A stretch of DNA of 64,000 bases from Burkholderia pyrrocinia. GTDB taxonomy: Bacteria > Pseudomonadota > Gammaproteobacteria > Burkholderiales > Burkholderiaceae. Made by a program: the position numbers and the translations under genes. Positions 45,531 through 47,278 of this stretch are shown in pieces (position 1 is the first letter of the stretch; every line of letters begins with the position of its first letter). The DNA lies in the NCBI RefSeq assembly GCF_003330765.1, contig NZ_CP024902.1, positions 310,001 to 374,000 of the forward strand. Direction: 5' to 3'. The notes below the pieces were generated by a model that was not told where the DNA came from, searched no databases, and saw only the letters and a list, made by a program, of their open reading frames with translations.

Positions 45531-45544
45531 TTACGGAACCCTTA

Positions 45545-45573
45545 GGTCATTTTTGGGAGCGTTGGTATATGAT
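45545..45573 (+). promoter_or_regulatory. Promoter candidate for the small RNA
   Basis: The -10 TATGAT (45568-45573) is good, while a -35 is weak (GGTCAT at 45545-45550 with 17 bases). The near-palindrome TATATGATA could also give a leftward start for hemB. Confidence 0.45.
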
Positions 45574-45579
45574 AGCGAT

Positions 45580-45684
45580 CGAGCGGCACGCGTCGCGTGC
45601 TGCTCCCCGCTTCTCCTCCCTGAGCGGGTGCCTGTCGTTTTTCGATTAGGCTGTTTGACCCGCCGTTAAACGGCGGGTTTTTTT
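45580..45684 (+). ncRNA. Candidate small RNA with an anti-Shine-Dalgarno loop
   Basis: An intergenic transcript of about 105 nt is predicted from structure alone. Hairpin 1 pairs GAGCGGCACG (45581-45590) with CGTGCTGCTC (45596-45605), one wobble. Hairpin 2 pairs CCCGCT (45606-45611) with AGCGGG (45623-45628) and displays the loop TCTCCTCCCTG, which contains CUCCU complementary to Shine-Dalgarno sequences. Hairpin 3 (ACCCGCCG with CGGCGGGT, 45658-45678) ends in seven Ts and is an intrinsic terminator on the plus strand. The flanking genes hemB and engB are on the minus strand, so this terminator serves neither. Its targets are unknown. Confidence 0.6.
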
Positions 45685-45750
45685 ATGAGCCGGCCGAATC
45701 CGCAGGCGCCGTCAGGTGCGCGCCGCCGATCCCGGCCGCGCGTTGCCCGA

Positions 45751-46410: not shown

Positions 46411-46624
46411 GGGAACCGGAAGGACGGGCGGCGCGAGCCGCTTGGTGGAGGCGGGGTAGCCCCGATAGGCGCGGGGGCTTTCAACGCGATATTGTACAAT
46501 ACGGCGGTTTTACCGAAGGCCTCCGGGCGCCTGCCTCGCGCTTTTATGCGGCTTCTGCGGTAGACTGATTGCCGTCGTTTTTTGCAGAACCTCAAATTCC
46601 CACAAGACGAAACAGGGTGTGCGA

Positions 46625-47278
46625 ATGAATCGACTGTGCAAGTCTCTGATGGTGCTTCAGGTTGCAGCAGGGTTCGTAGGTTTCGTAGCGGAGGCAAACG
46701 CGGCGGATGCGGCAAAGCCGGATCTCGACCGCGGCAAGGCGATTGCCGGGCAGGTCTGCGCGTCGTGTCACGGCGCCGACGGCAATAGCGCGTCGGGCAG
46801 TTTCCCGAAGCTTGCCGGCCAGCATCCCGAATATCTGGTCAAGCAGTTGAACGACTTCAAGACGCAGCCGGGCGCGAAGGGGCCGGTGCGTACCAACGCG
46901 GTAATGGTCGGATTCGCGAGTGCGCTGAGCGCGGACGACATGCGCAACGTCGCCGCGTACTACGGGTCGCAGACGACAAAGCTCGGCACCGCACGCGATG
47001 CGGCGACCGTGCCGATCGGCCAGAAGATCTATCGCGGCGGCATCGCGGAGAAGGGCGTACCGGCCTGCGCGAGCTGCCACGGGCCGACAGGGCAAGGGAT
47101 CCCGGTCCAGTACCCGCGCCTGTCGGGGCAATGGGCCGATTACACGGTCGCGCAGTTGGCCGCGTTCCAGCAGGGTGCCGGCGCGCGCAACAACAACGAG
47201 GCGATGCACCAGATCTCGACGCGTCTGTCGGACAACGAGATCAAGGCCGTCGCAGATTACATCGCGGGCCTGCGTTGA
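46625..47278 (+). CDS. Dihaem cytochrome c4 family protein
   Basis: A periplasmic or membrane-attached electron carrier to terminal oxidases. The 217 residues have a signal peptide (to about A27) and two cytochrome c domains with CASCH haem sites (C45-H49 and C148-H152), each followed by a downstream methionine as likely axial ligand. ATG at 46625 is preferred to a GTG six bases earlier because AGGG then lies at normal spacing. resB and ccsB follow, and their products probably attach its haem. Confidence 0.93.
   Translation: MNRLCKSLMVLQVAAGFVGFVAEANAADAAKPDLDRGKAIAGQVCASCHGADGNSASGSFPKLAGQHPEYLVKQLNDFKTQPGAKGPVRTNAVMVGFASALSADDMRNVAAYYGSQTTKLGTARDAATVPIGQKIYRGGIAEKGVPACASCHGPTGQGIPVQYPRLSGQWADYTVAQLAAFQQGAGARNNNEAMHQISTRLSDNEIKAVADYIAGLR

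Follow-up and report, generated by a model that had tools for sequence, protein, structure and literature searches.

Anti-hemB of Burkholderia pyrrocinia, a probable member of a polA-engB-linked small RNA family that includes Xanthomonas sX13

The window considered here (the whole stretch of 64,000 nucleotides analysed, positions 310,001 to 374,000 of the Burkholderia pyrrocinia contig NZ_CP024902.1) contains on its plus strand a copy of anti-hemB (RF02837), the small RNA (sRNA) called ncS04 in Burkholderia cenocepacia. The family to which this RNA belongs reaches far beyond the scope of its Rfam name and is not specific to Burkholderia. We consider it probable, at roughly 0.65, that anti-hemB is a trans-acting sRNA of an old family that is linked to polA and engB and includes sX13, and that its CU-rich loop covers ribosome-binding sites. 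According to this explanation, taken as a whole, the RNA would be transcribed from its own promoter and stopped at its own terminator; the CU-rich loop, held out on a GC hairpin, would pair in many mRNAs with purine-rich AGGGAGGAG-type sites that coincide with the ribosome-binding site or lie close to it; such pairing would lower the translation of those mRNAs; and Hfq would probably help in Burkholderia.

A catalogued RNA between hemB and engB

The Rfam model RF02837 matches positions 45604-45686 of the plus strand over model positions 1-81 of 81 and scores 85.1 bits there (cut-off 49.5). The preliminary description of this DNA had proposed an undescribed sRNA, and on that point it was mistaken, because RF02837 and the published ncS04 already name the RNA. 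In B. cenocepacia J2315, ncS04 is given as anti-hemB, with a length of 105 nt, a z-score of -5.5, and evidence from dRNA-seq, a 3' end by RACE and a Northern blot, with Hfq binding cited (PMC5688073); its gene lies between BCAL0264 and BCAL0265, and the RNA co-purifies with Hfq (PMC4603805). The transcript, its ends and its co-purification with Hfq are therefore established in print for that species. Another paper lists Anti-hemB as trans-acting among homologues of known RNAs (PMC3521395). The window copy agrees with anti-hemB/ncS04 in sequence, structure, strand, length and neighbours, and nothing notable differs; gene order and orientation are as for ncS04, with hemB and engB flanking the RNA on the opposite strand, and the window sequence predicts the 105-nt length of ncS04.

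The upstream neighbour is hemB (porphobilinogen synthase, PF00490; 44499-45497, minus strand), and the convergent neighbour is engB, also called yihA (ribosome-biogenesis GTPase, TIGR03598; 45751-46410, minus strand). A protein with two cytochrome c domains, which we take to be cytochrome c4-like, is encoded at 46619-47278 on the plus strand, and is also a neighbour at loci of other orders. The RNA itself, of about 105 nt, was placed at 45580-45684 (plus strand, 5' end inferred) from the RF02837 match, the fold, and the length and gene order of ncS04. It is preceded by a -10 box, TATGAT, at 45568-45573 (plus strand), which was recognized from its sequence and lies in a block conserved in the genus; the -10 consensus of B. 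cenocepacia is given as TAnAAT (PMC4603805). For the -35 element, no sigma-70 site passed the consensus scan at the locus.

The stretch 45580-45684 (105 nt) folds with -58.5 kcal/mol (z-score -7.4), and none of 200 shuffled sequences was equally stable. The fold consists of three hairpins and a terminator hairpin, all on the plus strand. The 5' hairpin (45581-45605) is variable in sequence, while its structure is kept. The central hairpin (45606-45628), with the stem CCCGC..GCGGG, is invariant in the genus, shows two-sided changes beyond it, and carries the loop UCUCCUCCCUG (45612-45622), which according to the Rfam structure is unpaired and which is complementary to AGGGAGGAG-type ribosome-binding sites; in the single-sequence fold, unlike in the Rfam structure, a few bases of this loop are paired. 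The third hairpin (45630-45651) was assigned from the fold, and the intrinsic terminator with its seven Ts (45657-45684) from a terminator scan, which found terminator-like sites at the locus on the plus strand only; neither of these two has a C-rich loop in the window copy. The preliminary description had depicted a plus-strand unit of about 105 nt between two minus-strand genes, with a good -10, a weak -35, three hairpins and a seven-T terminator, and in all of these respects it holds.

Conservation follows the same outline. Among 38 loci of the genus, own genome included, the -10 block (45561-45580) is invariant at 19 of 20 positions, the central hairpin at 23 of 23, the third hairpin at 21 of 23 and the terminator at 33 of 36. 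Fewer positions are invariant in the 5' hairpin (11/24) and in the stretch where a -35 would be expected (45541-45560; 11/20), and fewest in the outer flanks (5/40 and 7/40).

Compensated stems and a constant loop

Two alignments were used to judge the stems. Alignment A1 contains 50 copies from within the order; alignment A2 contains 93 copies from 83 of 84 loci, which were fitted to the model and are partly its building blocks, so that A2 leans to the model. In A1, 95.9% of the pair cells hold a standard pair, against 88.8% in shuffles, and two-sided changes occupy 67 cells, where shuffles give 22.7 and slid versions never exceed 25. In A2, two-sided changes are seen in 14 of 15 pairs and fill 245 cells; the corresponding number is 56 for shuffles and no higher than 34 for slid versions. 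All four consensus pairs of the 5' hairpin show such changes in both alignments. The central hairpin shows them at six of its seven pairs in A2, and within the order (A1) four of the seven pairs never vary. Across the class, the central stem thus varies with compensation and the loop stays unchanged: CCCU is present in 93/93 copies and CUCCCU in 90/93, all of them located by a model that itself contains that loop. The preliminary description had suggested that compensatory stem changes, a constant loop and an Rfam match be looked for, and each of the three turned up; its anti-Shine-Dalgarno-type loop on the middle hairpin gains support from the Rfam structure and from this constancy. At two loci behind polA (L298 and L302), the stem reads UCCGC/GCGGA and the loop UUUUCCUCCCUGA is kept.

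RNAalifold missed the terminator on A1 because the length of its loop varies, and single folds were used for it instead. By this means, and for copies with no more than 5 substitutions in the 23 positions of the central hairpin, 38/38 loci of the genus, 18/18 from other genera of the family, 69/75 from other families of the order and 41/46 from other orders of the class could be judged. The terminator loop is C-rich in 0/38, 0/18, 60/69 and 38/41 of these copies, respectively, and the loop of the third hairpin in 0/38, 2/18, 18/69 and 11/41. By these single-fold counts, Burkholderia displays a single C-rich loop, whereas two or three are seen in most relatives from outside the family. In four loci (L153, L174, L186 and L207) the third hairpin contains a common inner motif, GUGUGACAGCAAA, which was not seen in the Burkholderia copies; named carriers of this motif are Pseudacidovorax, Ramlibacter and Hydrogenophaga.

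Spread beyond Burkholderia

RF02837 was found over its cut-off in 65/65 genomes of the genus, 200/249 of the family and 190/300 of the order. At E 0.001 it matches 232/249 family genomes and 232/300 order genomes (112 of the 134 genera in the order sample), a level at which three of the 14 control genomes, including that of E. coli, are matched as well, all below the cut-off. The samples of genus, family, order and class share genomes, and the loci used came mostly from the top-scoring matches of each search. R1, a covariance model derived from A1, matches 118 of 370 genomes of the class at E 0.001 and leaves 252 unmatched; three of the 118 are the own genome or belong to the order, and the control genomes refer to RF02837 only. 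At 20 chosen loci outside the order, RF02837 itself is over its cut-off in 12 and below it in the other eight. A scan of titled genomes with the central hairpin gave at least 120 stretches; the titles of the best 80 are either beta-proteobacterial, as we take them to be (for example Variovorax, Azoarcus, Nitrosospira, Methylovorus and Vogesella, among the matches listed), or read only "Proteobacteria bacterium".

Several genomes hold more than one copy. Multiple copies were seen at L134 (1443, 14992 and 15176), L129, L314, L317, L320 and L164; four copies stand in a row between polA and engB at L358 (1498-2264), and genome G510 has six RF02837 matches.

Gene neighbourhood

Neighbours were counted for copies with at most 5 substitutions in 23 positions relative to the central hairpin, a core that 6/88 loci of the order and 5/46 of the class did not have. 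Within the order (88 loci, 13 of them from the own family), 54 copies lie between hemB and engB, and at 15 the RNA is preceded by engB on its own strand; of the rest, eight have one or two of the genes, five have none, and six are those without a located core. The layout with the RNA directly downstream of engB on the same strand was seen in several families of the order (L133, L136, L140, L141, L142, L145, L146, L151, L157, L166, L171 and L172). Outside the order, polA is commonly upstream, engB faces the RNA, and cytochrome c4 lies beyond. Among the 46 best-scoring loci there, 41 with a located core, polA adjoins the RNA at 29, and hemB is the nearest gene at none of the 46. Of the 41 located copies, 38 have at least one of polA, engB and cytochrome c4 no more than 1.2 kb away (three have none of them), and polA and engB flank the RNA on its two sides in 12 of the 41. 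Of the best 80 of at least 120 titled loci, 32 have hemB and engB, 28 hemB only, two engB only, one engB on the same strand and one (L219) polA and engB; 16 show no query gene within 1.2 kb, many of them ending near the match.

Both parts of the name anti-hemB mislead. The neighbourhoods also bear on the haem- or redox-linked control that the preliminary description had left as a possibility. A haem or iron link is not supported: beyond the order it is polA, engB or cytochrome c4, and never hemB, that lies nearest to the RNA, and ncS04 is reported to show no significant change in low iron or in six other conditions (low pH, osmotic stress, glucose medium, starvation, stationary phase and biofilm) (PMC5688073).

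Relation to sX13

Anti-hemB and sX13 of Xanthomonas look like one family of common descent, judged from where their models match. The reason is that, in one order, 10 of 10 sX13 matches fall on matches of the anti-hemB model. This is the order of genome G644 (57 genomes), in which R1 matches 53 genomes and sX13 matches 10, the latter from four genera (seven of the ten from one genus), on the same strand as R1, none over the cut-off and the best with E 1.2e-6; the other 43 R1-matched genomes have no sX13 match. The locus L322 is matched by both the anti-hemB and the sX13 (Xanthomonadaceae) models.

In the class sample, the sX13 model matches 15 of 370 genomes, three of them over its cut-off. 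With default filters, five of the 12 matches below the cut-off (in G644, G692, G725, G778 and G818) fall on R1 matches, and seven fall elsewhere, two in genomes with an R1 match at another place (G630 and G678) and five in genomes with no R1 match. With the same filters, R1 matches none of the three genomes in which sX13 is over the cut-off. With filters off, R1 matches one of these last five, L365, at the sX13 place with E 6e-5 (neither polA nor engB is beside it there), and at the sX13 place of the three over-cut-off loci and of L357 it gives 11.9-14.5 bits, or E 0.02-0.11 in 34 kb. L357, whose sX13 score of 49.5 bits falls just short of the cut-off (50), has CCCCUCCCUGA in its central hairpin and lies downstream of polA. 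The three clear sX13 copies are the weakest link of the kinship, and the anti-hemB model alone would not convince there. On the window copy, sX13 (RF02232) is not among the 11 Rfam matches up to E 5.

Like the family outside the order, sX13 lies downstream of polA and has stem-loops with C-rich apical loops (PMC3771888), and in intermediate copies the matches of the two models coincide. It is called constitutive, and the same paper also carries the section heading 'sX13 accumulates under stress conditions' (PMC3771888). Two differences stand out: sX13 has three C-rich loops and the window copy one, and sX13 works without Hfq (PMC3771888), whereas ncS04 co-purifies with it. Repression by sX13 needs the C-rich loops and G-rich mRNA motifs near start codons, and compensatory loop mutants failed to restore the effect (PMC3771888). 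The sX13 authors likened the locus to that of Spot 42 and asked whether the polA locus of other bacteria encodes similar RNAs (PMC3771888). In the open-licence literature, we did not find anti-hemB, sX13 and the polA-engB slot joined.

Mode of action and candidate targets

From the sX13 loop and motif data, together with the prediction that unpaired, CU-rich segments in sRNAs of B. cenocepacia cover ribosome-binding sites (PMC5688073, in passages that do not name ncS04), we infer that anti-hemB may damp mRNAs that carry AGGGAGGAG-type sites; by this analogy it would pair with such targets in Burkholderia and repress them. The 65 genomes of the genus contain the pattern GGGAGGAGA-N2-11-ATG 219 times and its backward form 36 times. 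This ratio attests the presence of such sites rather than their regulation, and it is partly expected for any Shine-Dalgarno-like motif. In the own genome there are four exact sites and none for the control. The sites GGGAGGAGA at C1:2545449 (L080) and C2:1053598 (L081) precede genes for a 3-hydroxybutyrate dehydrogenase and for a protein with PF10118; among the matches listed, such sites recur across the genus, and they are candidates only. No target is claimed from the matches listed, because the backward-pattern control does not separate them from a general ribosome-binding-site effect.

Several points count against the reading of anti-hemB as a trans-acting relative of sX13. sX13 works without Hfq, whereas ncS04 binds it; Burkholderia lacks the C-rich terminator loop; the window copy falls below the sX13 model; many genomes matched by R1 have no sX13 match, and seven of the 12 weak sX13 matches in the class sample lie away from R1 matches; at E 0.001 RF02837 also matches some control genomes; the excess of GGGAGGAGA sites is partly expected; and the constancy of the loop was measured on copies that models with this loop had located.

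Alternative explanations

The name itself implies a cis-antisense RNA that is divergent from hemB and pairs or interferes with its leader. hemB does adjoin the RNA on the other strand at 42/42 loci of the genus and family and at 59/88 loci of the order (54 of these with engB on the far side), but the RNA begins (at about 45580) roughly 82 nt upstream of the start codon of hemB and is directed away from that gene, beyond the order polA adjoins 29 of the 46 loci and hemB is nearest at none, what is conserved is one loop rather than complementarity along hemB, and ncS04 is unchanged in low iron. We therefore consider this explanation very improbable. Even less credible is a mere terminator or spacer between convergent genes with no regulatory role. 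The strong terminator, and the fact that the RNA faces engB in the window and at most of the placed loci of the order, would suit it; against it stand the RNA's own promoter, the product of about 105 nt detected by Northern blot in B. cenocepacia (PMC5688073), and a constant loop and compensated stems that extend beyond the terminator.

A more serious rival is a decoy or sponge, in which the loop would mimic the 3' end of 16S rRNA, or bind a protein or another RNA, and so titrate a factor. CCUCC is a match to the anti-Shine-Dalgarno core, and the central hairpin, stem included, is nearly constant in the order (the four unvarying pairs of A1), which is more than the need for varied targets would explain. 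Across the class, however, compensated changes alter the stem and leave the loop as it is, and the effect of sX13 required G-rich motifs in mRNAs, although its compensatory loop mutants gave no rescue (PMC3771888). On balance we regard a decoy as unlikely, with perhaps a modest chance of being right, and prefer a trans-acting RNA whose loop would cover ribosome-binding sites.

Wider reading

More tentatively, and at somewhat less than even odds, anti-hemB and sX13 may form a single polA-engB-linked family across the class (by inference Gammaproteobacteria in the GTDB sense, Beta included), with Spot 42 and ErsA as later occupants of the slot or far-diverged descendants. The ancestor would have damped translation through as many as three C-rich anti-Shine-Dalgarno loops, of which the Burkholderiaceae kept only the central one. 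If this is true, the RNA would rank among the most widely kept non-housekeeping sRNAs, and the question raised in the sX13 paper on RNAs at the polA locus of other bacteria (PMC3771888) would be answered. What we did not meet in the open-licence papers searched is the join of two separately named families through one conserved slot and a common central loop. The sX13 side brings to this join experiments on repression of mRNAs through the loops, and the B. cenocepacia RNA would gain from it a concrete, testable mode of action; the label anti-hemB is a poor guide for experiments.

Other RNAs compared

In E. coli K-12, polA, spf (the Spot 42 gene) and yihA/engB stand in the same order and orientation as at the loci outside the order; the published arrangement is polA > spf > < yihA/engB (PMC3295665). 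Spot 42 (RF00021) resembles the family outside the order by this slot, and the window copy itself sits between hemB and engB. No RF00021 match was found in the window, and in the class sample RF00021 is over its cut-off in 0/370 genomes and reaches E 0.001 in one. The weak match of RF02837 in the E. coli control genome is below its cut-off, and over spf the anti-hemB model gives at best 9.6 bits (E 0.1), from letters of the terminator and 5' end only. Direct homology with Spot 42 was rejected on these scores and on the negative RF00021 search, so that the link to Spot 42 is one of position alone.

The gene for ErsA of P. aeruginosa is likewise in the polA-engB interval (PMC8575079), and an sRNA at engB in that species has been called a putative Spot42 (PMC3349714). 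ErsA is inducible, and its activation of anr needed Hfq (PMC8575079); the comparison with the anti-hemB family concerns gene position.

The double-hairpin or toxic sRNAs of RF02278 (ncS03, ncS05, ncS27 and ncS62), which have been likened to Bordetella S17, also have CU-rich loops proposed to cover ribosome-binding sites (PMC11722255). Unlike the window copy, they are separate genes with a different structure, and on the window copy RF02278 scores 16.3 bits against a cut-off of 50. The own genome has four RF02278 copies over the cut-off (C1:283820, C1:3604199, C1:698155 and C2:939067; L073-L076). The copy at C1:283820 is weakly matched by the RF02837 model, and that at C1:698155 lies about 0.8 kb from an RNase P RNA gene.
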